Shown here: positions 17,721 through 26,764 of the stretch, one piece after another
Layout of the letters: each line of letters begins with the position of its first letter
Numbering within the stretch: position 1 is the stretch's first letter
Source: a gamma proteobacterium NOR5-3
Lineage (GTDB): Bacteria > Pseudomonadota > Gammaproteobacteria > Pseudomonadales > Halieaceae
Direction of reading: 5' to 3'
Assembly (NCBI GenBank): GCA_000158155.1
Contig: DS999405.1
Location: 1,166,365 to 1,230,364, forward strand
Length of the DNA: 64,000 bases
Program-made: the position numbers and the translations under genes
The notes under the pieces: model-generated
Seen by the model: only the letters and a program-made list of their open reading frames with translations
What the model was told of the DNA's origin: nothing
Databases searched by the model: none

Positions 17721-19499
17721 TCAGAACAAGTCTGGCGACCCATACTCTTCGGTTAGCGCTTCTCGCACCGCTGCCTTTTCTTTGGGCACATCCAGCGTTG
17801 CGCAGCGACCTTCCTCCCAGCGTTCGTAATCGCTGTAGGCGGCATCGCCCACCGTGGTCAGAAGCTCCCAAACCAGCATGCAGGTTTCCGTGTCATTGAG
17901 TGTTGAGGGCGTGCTGGCAACTTCACTAAGCAAACCATCAAGACCCGGACTGTCCCTTAGGAGCTTCGGCTCATCGGCACCAGCATCAAGCACCATAACT
18001 TCAGGAGTACCCGAGGCAAACTTCGGCCAGGAAATACCCTTAACGCTACCTGGAGAACCGGTCCGCGCGAACTGTCCCCAGGCGCCCATCATGATGTCGG
18101 TCATCGCCTGAGCGGAATCCGTATCCGGGTACATGTACTCCCCTACAGATCCATACATGGGCGCACCCATGACAAAAGCGATTTCACTGGCGTGAGCAGC
18201 ACCGAGGACCTTCGAAAACGGCACAAACCAATTGTCCGCCTGCTCGTCCCAATCAAAGCGATAGGCGTACAGGTCTTGATAGCCCGCTGACTCCAAGCTC
18301 AGTAGCGGCGCATCCACCCCGCGCGCCTTCCAGCCGCGTCCTCGCTGGCTAACCCAGTATTCAAACAATTGGGGGTCACGCACTCGAACTTTTGGCGGCA
18401 GCACGCCAAACAGGGAGTCGGCATCGACAAAGTAACGGCTCAAGCCCAGCCACAAGCTCACCTCATCGCGGTTTGAACCGGCCATAACCGGCACATTCTT
18501 GGCGTAGCGCGAGTCACCCAGCGCGGCAATCAAACCCTCTCGCGGAATTACCTGCCCGTCATTGACGATCAGCGGCTCTGCATGATCCTTGTAAATCGCA
18601 AAATACTCGCCAAGTAAGTCTGCGGCTGGCGTGGCGCGAAGTTCGGCTGCGGTAACCCTCGCGTTATCCATACCGAGGTTCGCAACAACTTCCCAGGAAC
18701 CCCGACTCAGGTTTGGGTACTCATTTTTTTCGTTATAGGCCTGCTGTGGCGAATAGCTTTGTAGCGTCGGCGACTGGGCAATAGCCTTGTGGAACAAGCC
18801 AGAAGTCATAGGTGATGCGAGCATGCTGTAGACATTTCGGCCGCCGGCGCTCTCGCCAAAAATAGTGACGTTGTCAGGATCACCACCGAAGGCGGCGATA
18901 TTGCGCTGTGTCCACTGCAGCGCGGCAATAATATCCAGGGTGCCAAAATTACCACTGGCATCCAGGTCCTGAGCGGATTCCTTCAATGCAGGATGCGTAA
19001 ACCATCCCAACGGTCCCAACCGGTAGTTGATGGTCACCACCACGACTTTTTCTTTCGCAACCAGAGCCGAAAAATCATAGGTGCCTTTATGGCCCGAGGT
19101 ATTTGCCCCGCCGTGAATCCAGAACATCACGGGGTAGCGTTCGCTGGCATAGTCAACCGGAGCCGCCACGTCCAGGTACAGACAGTCCTCACTACCGATA
19201 ATCCCGCCAGTCACAATGCCAGACGTCTCCCCCGCTTCCTGGGGACACAAAACAGGACTCTCTGCGGCGGTGAGCTTTTCTGCACTGGCTGCCAGACGCT
19301 GTGGCGCCCGCCAACGCCGCTGCGCTACCGGCGGCTGGGCGTAGGGGATATCCAGCCAGCGCACCACCGGGTGCTCGCTGGCGAACCCGACCACTCGTCC
19401 GCCCTCGGTGGCAACCAGCGTTTCCGCAAGCTCCTGCGCAGGAGGCACGGAACAGGCGATCAGCGTCGCACTGAGACACACCAGGACAAGCGACTTCAT
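17721..19499 (-). CDS. Lipoprotein carboxylesterase, type B (alpha/beta hydrolase)
   Basis: 592 residues. The first 16 residues end in a lipobox (LIAC), so Cys16 should be lipidated. The core is type B carboxylesterase: EDCLYLDVA, the oxyanion block HGGANTSGHKG, and the nucleophile elbow FGESAGGRN. It hydrolyses carboxylic esters in the periplasm or at the cell surface. The ATG overlaps the isocitrate dehydrogenase stop (ATGA), so both are translated from one mRNA, an odd pairing of a TCA-cycle enzyme with an exported esterase. Substrate unknown. Confidence 0.9.
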   Translation of the reverse strand: MKSLVLVCLSATLIACSVPPAQELAETLVATEGGRVVGFASEHPVVRWLDIPYAQPPVAQRRWRAPQRLAASAEKLTAAESPVLCPQEAGETSGIVTGGIIGSEDCLYLDVAAPVDYASERYPVMFWIHGGANTSGHKGTYDFSALVAKEKVVVVTINYRLGPLGWFTHPALKESAQDLDASGNFGTLDIIAALQWTQRNIAAFGGDPDNVTIFGESAGGRNVYSMLASPMTSGLFHKAIAQSPTLQSYSPQQAYNEKNEYPNLSRGSWEVVANLGMDNARVTAAELRATPAADLLGEYFAIYKDHAEPLIVNDGQVIPREGLIAALGDSRYAKNVPVMAGSNRDEVSLWLGLSRYFVDADSLFGVLPPKVRVRDPQLFEYWVSQRGRGWKARGVDAPLLSLESAGYQDLYAYRFDWDEQADNWFVPFSKVLGAAHASEIAFVMGAPMYGSVGEYMYPDTDSAQAMTDIMMGAWGQFARTGSPGSVKGISWPKFASGTPEVMVLDAGADEPKLLRDSPGLDGLLSEVASTPSTLNDTETCMLVWELLTTVGDAAYSDYERWEEGRCATLDVPKEKAAVREALTEEYGSPDLF

Positions 19500-21238
19500 A
19501 GCTTGTTCAAATTACTTTCAATGGCGTCGAGAAAGCCGTACATGTCCACCACGGTTTCTGACTCCGGAGCCAGGGTCTTACCCTTGAGATCGCCGGTAAT
19601 AGTGCCCTGCGCCACGGTTTCAATCAGTGCTGCTTTGAGCGCCTCGGCATACTCCGCCAGCGGTGCATTGTCCTCGCGTCGGGCAAGCTCTTCCAGGGCG
19701 TTTGCCACCGCAAAAATCAGCGCCGAGGAATTAAAGTTCGCCTCCTTACCATCGGTTTCCAGATATCGCAGATAAAGGTCGTGAGCCGTGCCGTGGGGTG
19801 CCTCAAAGAGCAAGGTGCCGTCTTTGCTTTTGATCACAGAGCTGGCCGTCGCAAGGCTCCCGCCCAGGGCAGCTGAGATATCCGAGAAAATGTCGCCATC
19901 AAGGTTCTGCGCCGGATACAGACCCCAGCGCGGCGGATCGCAGATCATTTTGCTGAGCTGGCGCGACGGACGCATGATCATGAATGATGGCGGCGGCGTA
20001 TCCAGTGCCGCAAGCTCCTTGCGAATTTCGAGAATAATTGAGCTGTAGACCTCATCGTAATTCACAAACTCACGCTTCAGGCCAAAGTACACTTCCTTTT
20101 TATACAGCGCGGCATCGCGAAACACCTGCTTGACCCAGTCTTTTATGGATTCGCGGTCGTTAGACATGAACAGAATGGGGTCATTGCTTTTGACGGTCCG
20201 GGCGTGCTTTTCCTCGCCATCCATAATGACTTTGATGATGCCGTCTTCGGGTGCGGGCGTGTTGTAGCTGCCGTATTGATCACCACCGCCGGCGCTCATT
20301 CTGGATATGGAGACATTGGCCTTCCGCTCGGGCAAGCCATAGTGCTTGAGCTGCTGAACGAGTTTGTAGAGCTTCATACCACTGACATTGTCGGGCACAC
20401 CCCACAAGGCCCGCTGCGGGGGGTTGGAAACAATACGGGCCGCCTGCGCATCGATAAGCTCGTAATGGTACTTAAGGCCGGCAGCCTCAACTTTGTCACG
20501 GTAATCGCTGACGTAGATCTCCTCGATGGCCGCGCGCATGACGCCGTCGTAACCGGGCACCACCGTATCTTTGAGCCCGAGATAGATGTCACGCTTTTCA
20601 TCTAGCGCCCGCTGAAAAAAGCGATGCGCCCAGGCTTTGACGTCATCCAGGTCATTGGTGGCCAACATCCAGGGATCGCCCTTTTTCAGGGTGCGACGAT
20701 GCAGCTCCACGGGATCACCACTACTGCCCACAAACATGACCTTGGCAACACCCGTGGCGTCAGAGAGTTCGCTGTAGCTGAAGTCCAGGCCACCACTTTC
20801 CATAGTGTCCACTTCAATATCACGATTCACCCAATCCGGACGCACACTGGTGAGGTTGCGAAATTCAATATCTTCCCGGGTGATGTTTCCGCCGATACCC
20901 TTACGGATCGCGCCATTGGGGGACTTGGTGGCCAGCTTGTCGAGCTGGGCTTCGTTGATCTGGGGATATTTAGCCAACATCTCGTCGAGCTGACTGCGAT
21001 TGACGGTCATGCCGGCGTTCTTTACGCCAATACCATGGTCCTTGAGCGCCTCAATAGCCTCAAGCACGACCTGACCATTACTGGTGAGGCGCTGCTCCGC
21101 TGACAGATCCACTTCCACTAACTGGATATCGAGACGAGAGGTGACAAACTGCTCCAGGATACGCTCAAAAGCGATCTGGGCCATCTCGTCACCGTGCAAA
21201 ATGACCAGCGGTTTTTCGACTTTTATCCTTTCGCCCAC
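19496..21238 (-). CDS. icd: Large isocitrate dehydrogenase, probably NAD-specific, with internal duplication
   Basis: 580 residues from a GTG start, against about 410 for ordinary type II enzymes. The N-terminus (GDEMAQIAFERIL), KSPNGAIRKGIGG and the C-terminal NLDGDIFSDI metal site identify isocitrate dehydrogenase, which makes 2-oxoglutarate, CO2 and reduced cofactor in the TCA cycle. The extra length comes from a repeated segment: residues about 185-285 and 350-448 align with each other (DP..., ND..., K.W, YFGLK/YLGLK, YD, PP..WG). The cofactor loop reads HGTAHDL with Asp487-Leu488 where NADP enzymes have Arg-His, which predicts NAD use. The esterase gene overlaps the stop codon by four bases. 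Confidence 0.9.
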   Translation of the reverse strand: MGERIKVEKPLVILHGDEMAQIAFERILEQFVTSRLDIQLVEVDLSAEQRLTSNGQVVLEAIEALKDHGIGVKNAGMTVNRSQLDEMLAKYPQINEAQLDKLATKSPNGAIRKGIGGNITREDIEFRNLTSVRPDWVNRDIEVDTMESGGLDFSYSELSDATGVAKVMFVGSSGDPVELHRRTLKKGDPWMLATNDLDDVKAWAHRFFQRALDEKRDIYLGLKDTVVPGYDGVMRAAIEEIYVSDYRDKVEAAGLKYHYELIDAQAARIVSNPPQRALWGVPDNVSGMKLYKLVQQLKHYGLPERKANVSISRMSAGGGDQYGSYNTPAPEDGIIKVIMDGEEKHARTVKSNDPILFMSNDRESIKDWVKQVFRDAALYKKEVYFGLKREFVNYDEVYSSIILEIRKELAALDTPPPSFMIMRPSRQLSKMICDPPRWGLYPAQNLDGDIFSDISAALGGSLATASSVIKSKDGTLLFEAPHGTAHDLYLRYLETDGKEANFNSSALIFAVANALEELARREDNAPLAEYAEALKAALIETVAQGTITGDLKGKTLAPESETVVDMYGFLDAIESNLNKL

Positions 21239-22799: not shown

Positions 22800-24341
22800 A
22801 TGAGCGGCAATTGGAGCGATCTGGTTTTTGTAAGCCTACCCCTCGCTTACATCTGTAGCGCAATGCTGGCGCCTTTGAACAGCGCACAGATTGGCTGGCG
22901 CCTGTTAAACGCCACGAACCTTTTGATACTACTCATAGTTATCAGTCTGCCATTTTTACCCGACGCGGAATCAGGCTTTTTTGCCCATCGCGCCATGCCA
23001 ATGACAGTGCTCACTATTGTTTCCTTTATCGGCTGGATCGTTACGCGTTTCTCTGCTCATTACCTCAGCGGGGAATCTGGCGAGCGGCGATTCCAGCGCT
23101 GGCTGCAGCTGACTCTGGGCAGCGTAACCATCGTGGTAACCAGCAATCATCTGGGCGTATTGATCGCTGCCTGGATCGGTATCAGCTTGTCTTTACACCA
23201 ATTACTGATGTTTTATCCCGAGCGCAAACGCGCCGTGTTGGCAGCGCATAAAAAATTCCTCTTCGCGCGACTCGCCGAATCCTGCTTGATCGCCGCTGCC
23301 GCGCTGCTCTACCTGCAGCATGGCACCCTTTACATCAGTGACATTCTCGCCGCCTATGAAGGCAGCTCGGTGACTCTGAACGCCGGCGAACAGATCGCTG
23401 CGCTGTTGATCGCAAGCGCCGCCATGGTTAAGTGCGCGCAATTCCCCATGCACGGATGGCTGATTCAGGTGGTGGAGTGTCCCACGCCCGTTTCAGCGCT
23501 GCTCCATGCGGGAATTATCAACCTCGGTGGCTTTCTTATTCTGCTTATGGCGCCACTGATGCTGCATGCCGAATTGGCAAACTGGTTGCTGCTGATTGTG
23601 GCGGGCCTGACCTGCGTAGCCGCAGCCTTGATCACCATGACGCGGGTCAGCGTGAAGGTCTTGCTTGCCTGGTCCACGGTGGCTCAGATGGGCTTAATGC
23701 TCGTCGAGTGCGCCTTGGGACAATACGGACTTGCTCTGCTCCACTTGGTCGCTCACTCCTGCTACAAGGCTTACGCATTCTTGAGCGCAGGCGGCGATGT
23801 AGAGGTTTTCCTGCGCAAGCAACTCGCACCCGCCCGCCCGCCCGCGCCGGGCACCCTGCCCCTGCTGTTTGCTCTGGCACTCGGTGTCATCGGCACTCTG
23901 TACGGGATGGGCATGGTTACCAATGACGCCAGCCTGTGGTTACTCCTCGCACTGTTCCCCCTCGCCATGCTGAGCGAACGCAACAGCACGAGGTACAGCG
24001 CCTCCCTACTCATGACCGCTGGGCTGGGGCTGCTCCTGATTGTCGCTTATTGGCTGCAAAAGACGGTTTTTATTCACCTGGCACCCGGCGGCGCAACGCC
24101 CGATGCCGTCACTGCGCTGTGGTGTGCCCTATTGTTTAGCGCACTCCTTGCCGCTTACTGGATTCTTCGCCAGCGGGGCGACTCAGCTCTGGGGCGACGC
24201 CTCTACCGCAATCTCTATGCAGGTTTTTATCTTGATGAGTGGGCGACCCGGGCCACCCTGGCTCTTTGGCCCGCCAAACTGCCGCAGCACGGTGCACAGC
24301 ATGAAACTGACACGTCACACCCACGGGAGAAGCAATCATGA
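22800..24341 (+). CDS. dabB: DAB inorganic carbon pump, membrane subunit DabB (NuoL/MrpA-like)
   Basis: 513 residues, about 13-14 hydrophobic helices of the proton-pumping NuoL/NuoM family. A central block with QFPMHGWLIQ and ECPTPVSALLHAGIINLGG is the conserved NuoL helix 7-8 region, and LLAWSTVAQMG plus HSCYKAYAFLSAG give the next conserved helices. The ATG follows GGGAG; an A/T-rich stretch lies upstream at about 22700-22760. It is coupled to dabA by an ATGA overlap. That pairing, not NADH dehydrogenase genes, identifies it as DabB, which conducts cations to energise vectorial CO2 hydration. Confidence 0.92.
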   Translation: MSGNWSDLVFVSLPLAYICSAMLAPLNSAQIGWRLLNATNLLILLIVISLPFLPDAESGFFAHRAMPMTVLTIVSFIGWIVTRFSAHYLSGESGERRFQRWLQLTLGSVTIVVTSNHLGVLIAAWIGISLSLHQLLMFYPERKRAVLAAHKKFLFARLAESCLIAAAALLYLQHGTLYISDILAAYEGSSVTLNAGEQIAALLIASAAMVKCAQFPMHGWLIQVVECPTPVSALLHAGIINLGGFLILLMAPLMLHAELANWLLLIVAGLTCVAAALITMTRVSVKVLLAWSTVAQMGLMLVECALGQYGLALLHLVAHSCYKAYAFLSAGGDVEVFLRKQLAPARPPAPGTLPLLFALALGVIGTLYGMGMVTNDASLWLLLALFPLAMLSERNSTRYSASLLMTAGLGLLLIVAYWLQKTVFIHLAPGGATPDAVTALWCALLFSALLAAYWILRQRGDSALGRRLYRNLYAGFYLDEWATRATLALWPAKLPQHGAQHETDTSHPREKQS

Positions 24342-26764
24342 CAGCCCAAGCGCAACGCACAGACTCACAAGCGCCCTTTGCACAAGGCGCAGCTCTGGCC
24401 GCCGGTTGTCGCATAGCGCCCACCTGGCCGCTGGATCAGCTCATCGCCGTTAACCCCTGGTGGGAGATGCGCGACCAGCCCATTACTGATGTCGCGGCAC
24501 GCCTTACCCTGCTGGGCCATGCCAAGGGACACATGCCCCGACAGTGGTTTAAGGCTCAATTCCCGGACCGAATAAGTCCTGAGCATCTGGACCGGGCACT
24601 TAAGGAATCCGCGACGCCGTTGGATCGTGAAGCAGCACTGGCCTGGCTTGGTGCAAAGGGCCAGCCCCGGTGCTGGAACAACTTCAGCGATGCCGTTGAC
24701 GCAGGCCGGGATCTCTCCCGCAATGTCTCCTGGCATGATGAAATTATTCATCAGATCAGTCAGTTTTGCGCGAGCTTTTACAGTATTGCCACGCCCCTCC
24801 CCCATGAACCCGATCATTGTCTTTACGAAGCGTGGCTGGAGAACGTCCGCAACGATCGCGGCATCGAAATCATGATGGGCGAAAAAGGCCTGCATGAGCA
24901 CTTTGACGCACTGCCGGAAACCGCTGAAACCCTGTTGGACGAGGCCATCACTGAACTGTTGGTTCCCCAGGAAGTCATGGAAGACTATTTCCATGCTCTG
25001 TTACTGGATATTAATGGCTGGGCCTCCTGGGTCGCGTATCAGCGCTGGCAATCGAAACTGGCAGGCGGTAGCGATGACGCGATGCATCAGCTACTCGCCA
25101 TCCGTCTGGCCTGGGAGCTGGTGCTTTGGCGACATCAGAGCAGCAGGCATCAAGGCAATGTCGCCACCTTGTCCGAAGCGTGGACAAAGCAGTTCTCCGA
25201 GCTGCCGGACTTGCTCCAGCAGCACCGCCGGCATCAGGAGCCTGCCTGGCTCTGGCAAAGAGCAGCGGAAATCGCCTTTCAGGAAGCCACGCACGCGAAA
25301 CTGCTTGCCCCGCTCCCCACAAGCAAAGAAGCGATTCAACGGCCGATACTACAGGCGGCGTTTTGTATTGATGTTCGCTCCGAGGCGTACCGGCGCGCGC
25401 TGGAATCTCAGAATCCGGCCATCCAGACGCTGGGCTTTGCCGGTTTCTTTGGCTTGCCCATGGAATACGCACCTTCTGGTGCAAGCTACAAGCGGCCGCA
25501 ACTCCCCGGACTCCTCGCTCCCGCTTTGACTGTCAGCGAATCAGAGGGCCCTAACGCCGTATCCCGGCAAAGTGCCAGACTGAACCGCCAGGCTCGGTGG
25601 TCGGCGATAGCCAAAGCGGCGCCTGCCGCCTTTGGCTATGTTGAATCAGTGGGTCTGGGCTACGCCTTCAAACTCCTGCGGGAATCACTGTTTGGCGCGG
25701 ACAATGCACATCCGGTAAACACCGTCCATGACTCGGCTGTACGCTATGTGGTGAGCAATAAAGAGACCGCCCTGGATGCCGCGGCGCAGGCTGCACTGGT
25801 AGCCGGCATCCTCGGCGCAATGACTTTGACCAAAAATTTCGCAAGCACTGTTATTCTCGCAGGCCACGGCAGTAGCACCCGCAACAATCCGCACGCGGCG
25901 GGTCTGGACTGTGGGGCCTGTGGCGGTCAAACCGGTGAAATCAACGTGCGTGTGCTGACGCAGTTGCTCAATGACGGCGATGTGCGCAGCGCGCTGGCAG
26001 GTAATCATGACATCGACATACCTCAGGATACGACCTTCGTCGCAGCGCTCCACGATACCACCACAGACGAGCTCCACTGTCTGACGCCGTTATCCGCAGG
26101 CTCAAAGGCTATTGACGATTGGATCACTGCCGCCGGCAAGGCTGCGCGCCGCGAGCGAGCAGAAAGTCTCGGCGTTGCCGAAAAGAACAGCGACAAAGGG
26201 ATCATGGAGCGCAGTCGTGACTGGTCCCAGATACGCCCCGAGTGGGGTCTGGCCGGGAACGCCTGTTTTATTGTTGCACCTCGATCTCGAACGGTGCATC
26301 TGGACTTTGGGGGGCGCAGTTTTCTTCACGACTACGACGAAGCCGCGGACAGCGCCGGGGGCTATGGGGTGCTGGAACTCATCATGACCGCGCCCATGCT
26401 CGTCACGCACTGGATCAACATGCAATACAACACATCGGTCATGGACAACGACCTCTACGGTTCCGGGAACAAAGTGCTACACAACGTTGTGGGCGGTAAC
26501 CTCGGCGTATTCGAGGGCAACGGGGGAGACTTACGCATAGGCCTACCTTTGCAGTCTCTCCACAACGGGCAACAGTGGATGCATGACTCGCTTCGCCTGA
26601 GTGTGTACATCGCCGCCTCACAAAAGGCCATTGCCGACATTGTCGATCGCCATGAGGTTGTTCGTCAGCTCATCGATAATGACTGGATTTACCTCTATCG
26701 ATTGGAAGAGACAGGCAAAGAGATACAGCGACTGTACAAAGGCGAGTGGTCCATCGCCGCCTAG
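24338..26764 (+). CDS. dabA: DAB inorganic carbon pump, carbonic-anhydrase-like subunit DabA (DUF2309)
   Basis: 808 residues, the usual DUF2309/UPF0753 length. The beta-carbonic-anhydrase-like zinc site is complete: Cys343 and Asp345 in FCIDVRSE, His510 in LAGHGSSTRNNP and Cys525 in GLDCGACGG. The His-to-Cys spacing of 15 agrees with what I recall for Halothiobacillus DabA. Other family blocks include NPWWEMR near residue 39 and GGNLGVFEGNGGDLRIGLPLQS (split) near the end. With DabB it traps CO2 as bicarbonate in the cytoplasm. In a heterotroph this would feed carboxylases and anaplerosis at low CO2. Confidence 0.94.
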   Translation: MTAQAQRTDSQAPFAQGAALAAGCRIAPTWPLDQLIAVNPWWEMRDQPITDVAARLTLLGHAKGHMPRQWFKAQFPDRISPEHLDRALKESATPLDREAALAWLGAKGQPRCWNNFSDAVDAGRDLSRNVSWHDEIIHQISQFCASFYSIATPLPHEPDHCLYEAWLENVRNDRGIEIMMGEKGLHEHFDALPETAETLLDEAITELLVPQEVMEDYFHALLLDINGWASWVAYQRWQSKLAGGSDDAMHQLLAIRLAWELVLWRHQSSRHQGNVATLSEAWTKQFSELPDLLQQHRRHQEPAWLWQRAAEIAFQEATHAKLLAPLPTSKEAIQRPILQAAFCIDVRSEAYRRALESQNPAIQTLGFAGFFGLPMEYAPSGASYKRPQLPGLLAPALTVSESEGPNAVSRQSARLNRQARWSAIAKAAPAAFGYVESVGLGYAFKLLRESLFGADNAHPVNTVHDSAVRYVVSNKETALDAAAQAALVAGILGAMTLTKNFASTVILAGHGSSTRNNPHAAGLDCGACGGQTGEINVRVLTQLLNDGDVRSALAGNHDIDIPQDTTFVAALHDTTTDELHCLTPLSAGSKAIDDWITAAGKAARRERAESLGVAEKNSDKGIMERSRDWSQIRPEWGLAGNACFIVAPRSRTVHLDFGGRSFLHDYDEAADSAGGYGVLELIMTAPMLVTHWINMQYNTSVMDNDLYGSGNKVLHNVVGGNLGVFEGNGGDLRIGLPLQSLHNGQQWMHDSLRLSVYIAASQKAIADIVDRHEVVRQLIDNDWIYLYRLEETGKEIQRLYKGEWSIAA

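Follow-up and report, generated by a model that had tools for sequence, protein, structure and literature searches.

The open reading frame at positions 19496-21238 (minus strand, GTG start) of the window, a 64,000-nucleotide stretch of the gamma proteobacterium NOR5-3 (assembly GCA_000158155.1, contig DS999405.1, positions 1,166,365 to 1,230,364), encodes a 580-residue isocitrate dehydrogenase (IDH) that carries the small/clasp domain of type II IDHs twice, at residues 140-281 and 308-440, with the catalytic residues divided between the copies. We propose that this protein is an IDH of the same type as ClIDH of Congregibacter litoralis KT71, specific for nicotinamide adenine dinucleotide (NAD), and that its tandem small/clasp duplication most likely gives each chain a complete active site of its own.

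Two small-domain copies in a ClIDH-type isocitrate dehydrogenase

The two halves of the protein resemble each other well above chance. BLASTP of residues 1-300 against 301-580 gave 56 bits (E = 9e-14, 34% identity over 104 columns), and Smith-Waterman alignment of residues 140-281 with 308-440 scored 140, a value that none of 1000 shuffles reached (null mean 31, maximum 66), while five other segment pairs of the protein scored only 20-27. To extend this to the family, we used an alignment of 57 rows, consisting of the window protein and 56 of 80 relative loci, the 80 being the best of 232 loci found; row counts out of 57 below refer to this alignment. Comparison of the family profiles by hhalign matched residues 142-280 with 310-442 (E = 2.5e-14, 33% identity), and the cut profile segments for copy 1 and copy 2 scored 98.6; of 100 column permutations, the number used for each profile segment score reported here, the highest gave 25.1. 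The shuffles and column permutations rule out a chance or low-complexity repeat.

A previous sequence-only reading of this stretch had attributed the 580-residue length to a duplication, which these scores bear out, and had named a profile self-comparison and a comparison of folds as checks. The former gave the significant match just described; as for the latter, in both structure models described below the predicted secondary structure elements follow the same order in copies 1 and 2, except for the poorly predicted first strand at the start of copy 2. The repeat itself is therefore real, but the bounds first proposed for it, 185-285 and 350-448, were too short. The linker, which had been placed at about 286-349, gives way to a junction at about 282-307, and the glycine-rich segment SAGGGDQYGSYN that had been assigned to it belongs to the early part of copy 2, where it adjoins the conserved Arg313 and includes Tyr322.

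Comparison with ordinary type II IDHs identifies the extra segment. All 28 type II IDHs fetched from the class and phylum genomes (about 400 residues each) lack about residues 269-439, and all 28 align to the window protein in two pieces, at about 4-268 and 440-579; the best 80 of 232 relatives align in one piece over nearly its full length. Since type II IDHs have a single copy and the repeat is strong, we conclude that the extra length is a second small/clasp domain, so that the window protein has two such domains and not the single one of an ordinary type II IDH. The family profile matches a type II profile over the large domain and copy 1 (E = 3e-38, 34% identity). When searched against solved structures, the copy-1 profile found type II IDHs best, at E = 3e-15, aligning without gaps and with an offset of 11 to human IDH1 (chain 1t09), and returned no type III chain up to E = 10. 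The copy-2 profile gave weak matches to type II residues 135-239 (E = 0.009) and to residues 407-505 of the type III chain 7y1u (E = 0.017), in a search that also picked an unrelated protein at E = 0.08. The protein is thus divided as follows (window coordinates, all on the minus strand):

20822..21238, minus strand: residues 1-139, N-terminal part, large domain and lead into the small domain (type II IDH alignment)
20396..20821, minus strand: residues 140-281, copy 1 of the small/clasp domain (repeat tests, type II structure matches)
20318..20395, minus strand: residues 282-307, junction between the copies (predicted helix 284-300)
19919..20317, minus strand: residues 308-440, copy 2 of the small/clasp domain (profile matches, conservation in 57/57 rows)
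19499..19918, minus strand: residues 441-580, C-terminal part of the large domain (NLDGDIFSDI with D449 and D453; NAD-determining D487-L488)

Among family models, PF00180 (isocitrate/isopropylmalate dehydrogenase) is passed with 73 bits against a cut-off of 27, and PF03971 (type III monomeric IDH) is not reached, with 20 bits against a gathering cut-off of 25. All 19 NCBIfam families listed for the protein stay below their cut-offs; for the ordinary type II IDH families the scores are 236 against 335 bits (NF006156) and 185.5 against 397 (TIGR00127), the cut-offs being the curated ones.

ClIDH (EAQ96042; 1743 bp, 580 residues) has been described as a NAD-specific enzyme that forms a homohexamer in solution, and its Asp487Arg/Leu488His mutant prefers NAD phosphate (NADP) about 24-fold (PMC4420465). 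The same source reports 163 additional residues within the small-domain region (Asn272-Met314, Gly319-Trp438), an inactive monomer when residues 272-314 and 319-438 are removed, and 38 relatives in Luminiphilus, Halomonas, Marinobacter and others (PMC4420465). The window protein equals ClIDH in length and in the landmarks N272, M314, G319, W438, D487 and L488, and we saw no difference between the two enzymes. A mutagenic primer for ClIDH matches the window with 3 mismatches in the 30 bases outside its two changed codons, and the window therefore probably comes from a close relative of strain KT71. Judging from sequence, ClIDH is very probably the orthologue of the window protein in a sister species or strain. 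The NAD use that had been predicted from Asp487-Leu488 has already been demonstrated for this orthologue (PMC4420465), and Asp-Leu stands at the coenzyme site (487/488) in 57/57 rows.

Through ClIDH, the enzyme, its NAD specificity and its hexamer are thus already known (PMC4420465). What is new is that its “163-residue” segment is a second copy of the small domain, with the catalytic residues divided between the two. Specifically, the deletion made in ClIDH takes away the final ten residues of copy 1, the junction and almost the whole of copy 2. In its publication, ClIDH figures as a type II IDH whose extra segment is left unexplained; the accessible text of PMC4420465 contains none of the strings “duplicat”, “repeat”, “tandem” and “type III”, and neither the duplication reading, the residue division nor the tie to type III IDHs was found in a search of the open-licence PMC literature, outside of which lie subscription papers and supplements.

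Division of the catalytic residues and the proposed one-chain site

In human IDH1, Tyr139 is supplied by the subunit that holds the site, whereas Lys212', Thr214' and Asp252' are supplied by its partner (PMC12200840). In the window protein, the equivalents of these residues lie in different copies. K223, T225 and D263 of copy 1, which by alignment correspond to human K212', T214' and D252', are invariant in 57/57 rows, in agreement with the earlier suggestion that the catalytic Lys/Asp region is conserved in the first copy. Equally invariant in copy 2 are R313 and Y322, corresponding by alignment to human R132 and Y139, and the whole of D320-Q321-Y322 (57/57 rows). Copy 1 has no Arg132 equivalent, T145 occupying the Arg position in 57/57 rows, and at its Tyr position Lys is found in 35/57 rows, Asp in 22/57 and Tyr in none. 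Copy 2, in turn, has E390 and S425 at the Thr214 and Asp252 positions (57/57). Human numbering was transferred with the ungapped offset of 11 for copy 1 and with G319 equal to human 136 for copy 2. The large-domain residues S106, N108, R112, R121, D449 and D453 are likewise invariant in 57/57 rows; the first four, assigned by motif, we take to be human S94, N96, R100 and R109 with their role in substrate binding. NLDGDIFSDI (445-454) does come after copy 2, as had been noted from the sequence.

These data suggest how the active site of a dimer may have been packed into one chain. In an ordinary type II homodimer, each small domain serves two sites, with Arg132/Tyr139 acting in its own and Lys212/Thr214/Asp252 in that of the partner. 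In ClIDH-type enzymes, copy 1 would have retained the partner role only, and copy 2 the own-subunit role, most of its partner role being lost. The large domain, copy 1 and copy 2 would then form one complete site per chain, like that of the one-chain type III IDHs, and such pseudo-dimers could assemble into the hexamer published for ClIDH. What we infer is the meeting of both copies within a single chain and the architecture of the hexamer; the idea of the sequence-only reading that the active site is built from parts of both copies draws support from the residue division and from the likeness to one-chain type III IDHs. If right, this would be, to our knowledge, the second case of an IDH packing the active site of a dimer into one chain. 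It would also represent a less diverged stage (33-34% identity between the copies), which would make the evolutionary change open to experiment.

The view that the extra segment is a second small domain with part of the active site implies a single site per chain and is consistent with the ClIDH deletion result, since an inactive mutant is expected if copy 1 alone lacks Arg132/Tyr139. We consider it unlikely that sites are instead shared between the chains of the hexamer, with copy 1 of one chain completing the site of its neighbour (domain-swapped), as in dimers. Although a hexamer has been published (PMC4420465) and type II relatives do share sites between subunits (PMC12200840), both predicted models resemble one-chain type III enzymes, and sharing would be superfluous once both roles sit in one chain. 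Very improbable, in our view, is an oligomerisation insert that holds the hexamer without a direct catalytic part, the emphasis of PMC4420465 (2015): ClIDH did become monomeric when the segment was removed, and a site in type II IDHs takes two subunits, so that loss of activity alone is no proof of a catalytic role, but the segment is a homologous copy of a catalytic small domain with R313 and D320-Q321-Y322 invariant, copy 1 is without Arg and Tyr, and a pure insert would have no need of R313/Y322.

The resemblance to type III enzymes comes from AlphaFold2 models of the window protein (model 1; predicted local distance difference test score (pLDDT) 78.7, predicted template modelling score (pTM) 0.76) and of a Marinobacter relative (model 2; pLDDT 74.9, pTM 0.67). 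Among the 50 Foldseek matches listed, type III chains take ranks 1-11 for model 1 and 1-14 for model 2. In VIA alignments, 539-548 residues of both models align to type III chains (Z 27.6-29.6, root-mean-square deviation 4.0-7.6), and for model 2 the type II chains lie lower, with Z 26.7 at best.

Several points weigh against a one-chain site. The division of residues is incomplete, as K388 is kept in copy 2 (57/57 rows), the column next to the copy 1 Tyr position has one Tyr among 57 rows, and equating R313 with R132 needs a two-residue gap in the MAFFT alignment. The own-subunit role of human Arg132 is one that we presume. The ClIDH deletion isolates no catalytic role, because it shortened copy 1 as well and disrupted the oligomer. 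As ClIDH is a hexamer (PMC4420465), sites between chains are possible. With regard to the models, the VIA Z scores of model 1 are tied, the top match being the type II chain 1zor_A (Z 29.8, 386 residues, root-mean-square deviation 17.1). The higher Foldseek TMq of type III chains (0.58-0.70 vs 0.37-0.42 for type II, among the 50 matches listed) is a score that favours any two-copy template through length, and by TMt type III has no advantage over type II (0.50-0.57 vs 0.55-0.59 for model 1; 0.48-0.52 vs 0.52-0.58 for model 2). The models are of moderate quality, with pLDDT below 50 at 307-311, 315-322 and 483-502 in model 1 and at 305-322 and 482-502, among others, in model 2, so that the stretch holding R313/Y322 is largely below 50. 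AlphaFold2 presumably had type III structures in its training, and in a sequence search of the PDB the top-ranked of the best 60 matches listed are ordinary type II IDHs (165-205 bits).

Relation to type III isocitrate dehydrogenases

Type III IDHs are said in print to share less than 10% identity with other IDHs, and a 2002 paper by Yasutake, to go by its title, reportedly deals with their domain duplication. They (PF03971; 1itw/1j1w, Campylobacter 7y1u) have in common with the window protein two small-domain copies in one chain and in the same order. They differ from it in length (about 740 vs 580 residues), and structural alignments with the models of the ClIDH type show 15-18% identity; the large domain of the window protein is type II-like, and the published ClIDH oligomer is a hexamer, unlike the monomeric type III. 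Type II homodimeric IDHs (1zor, 2uxq, human IDH1) share the large domain and copy 1 with the window protein but have one small domain and a site shared between subunits, and according to the literature they mostly use NADP. Lys/Thr/Asp in copy 1 together with Tyr in copy 2 is found in 57/57 ClIDH-type and 26/26 type III rows, in the latter as K251, T253 and D346 in copy 1 and Y416 in copy 2 (26/26 rows each). The roles of these residues in type III we assume from the alignment, and they agree with those reportedly assigned in papers on Azotobacter structures. At the Lys position of copy 2, type III has Asp485 by alignment (26/26 rows).

Profile comparisons relate the ClIDH type by sequence to type II IDHs and to copy 2 of type III IDHs. 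The family and type III profiles are collinear over 413 columns (E = 3.7e-4, hhalign probability 37%), with a score of 40.9 against a null maximum of 30.8, and segment 277-442 scores 34.1 against type III (null maximum 21.0); the junction region alone (segment 262-330) is not significant against type III, 14/100 permutations reaching its score. PF03971 matches 47/57 rows at E<=0.01, weakly and around copy 2. With an ordinary type II profile, the whole type III profile gives 42.2 (null maximum 26.9), on type III copy 1 only. Types II and III can therefore be linked without the ClIDH type, through this direct match to type III copy 1, and it is type III copy 2 alone whose link requires ClIDH copy 2. 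The mutual match of the two type III copies is not above chance with the profiles used.

Type III IDHs are known domain-duplicated enzymes (PMC5979607), which raises the question of one duplication or two. We lean slightly towards independent events in the ClIDH type and in type III that converged on a similar division of labour. When all 15 groupings were tested on 25 of the 56 sequences, the best tree (tree 3) paired both copies within each family, i.e., two events, with no grouping rejected at p-AU 0.05 (lowest 0.064). Copy 1 and copy 2 of the ClIDH type score 98.6 with each other, but neither exceeds 32.2 with type III. From a shared duplication one would expect ClIDH copy 1 to match type III copy 1, but that match is not clear (18.3, reached by 3/100 permutations), whereas type II does match type III copy 1 (47.6). 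In addition, the profile match of the large-domain parts to type III is not significant (E 0.016-0.027), and type III copy 1 still has a Tyr (Y178) at the Tyr139 position in 20/26 rows.

Other observations speak for the same small-domain duplication underlying both, with orthologous second copies and the ClIDH type as a surviving intermediate from type II homodimer to monomeric type III, a scenario that we put forward tentatively and regard as rather doubtful. Compared with ClIDH-type copy 1, ClIDH-type copy 2, type II and its own copy 1, type III copy 2 rises above the null with ClIDH-type copy 2 only (32.2, null maximum 24.3). A D-W-V helix motif is common to the second copies, as is I-M-x-P, in place of which the first copies shown carry L/I-I/V-D; a free tree of 56 sequences paired the second copies (support 67) and placed type II with type III copy 1 (83). 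If a single duplication were true, type III would not have evolved independently, contrary to what two papers suggest (PMC5979607, PMC8287583).

Distribution and genomic context

Full-length relatives of the window protein were found in 7/369 class genomes and 4/398 phylum-sample genomes, its own included in each count, the other 103 matching phylum-sample genomes having ordinary type II pieces. In the family sample, relatives occur in 56/100 genomes, of which two have an incomplete gene at a contig end and four a match with one counted stop. Among the 232 relatives, the best 80 come from Halieaceae, Halomonas and its relatives, Motiliproteus, Marinobacter and further gammaproteobacteria; their identity to the window protein forms two bands, 82-90% and 73-77%. 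Nine neighbours of the IDH gene were tested, and none was found in any of the 80 related loci (E<=1e-10); as some of these loci are short, the gene context offers no clue. Altogether, the identity bands and the lack of shared neighbours suggest a patchily inherited stand-alone gene. As for virus-borne relatives, 41 pattern matches in viral contigs yielded 0 confirmed cases.

The genome of NOR5-3 also carries a type I NADP-IDH, leuB and a tartrate dehydrogenase-like gene, and a search of it with PF03971 gave no match. Type I IDH is above cut-off in 86/100 family genomes, and the ClIDH-type enzyme is thus a second IDH in its host and probably in most of the family. Genome searches with PF03971 picked up 12 of the 56 ClIDH-type family-sample genomes and two ClIDH-type genomes of the class sample, always around copy 2, and 3 of these 14 relatives exceed the Pfam cut-off (25.2, 28.9 and 27.0). 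Mutual exclusion with type III can be rejected, since the ClIDH type is also present in 17 of the 19 family genomes whose PF03971 gene is full-length or nearly so.

Two minor observations concern the surroundings of the gene and the family alignment. Near the IDH gene, at window 22800-26764 on the plus strand, lies a pair of genes for a DabB-like protein (Proton_antipo_M) and DabA (PF10070, 782 bits); the pair probably forms an inorganic carbon transporter, and its host is probably a marine heterotroph. Finally, PF24829 (phage connector) gives a weak Pfam match in 3/57 rows (best E = 6.7e-5), probably by chance.

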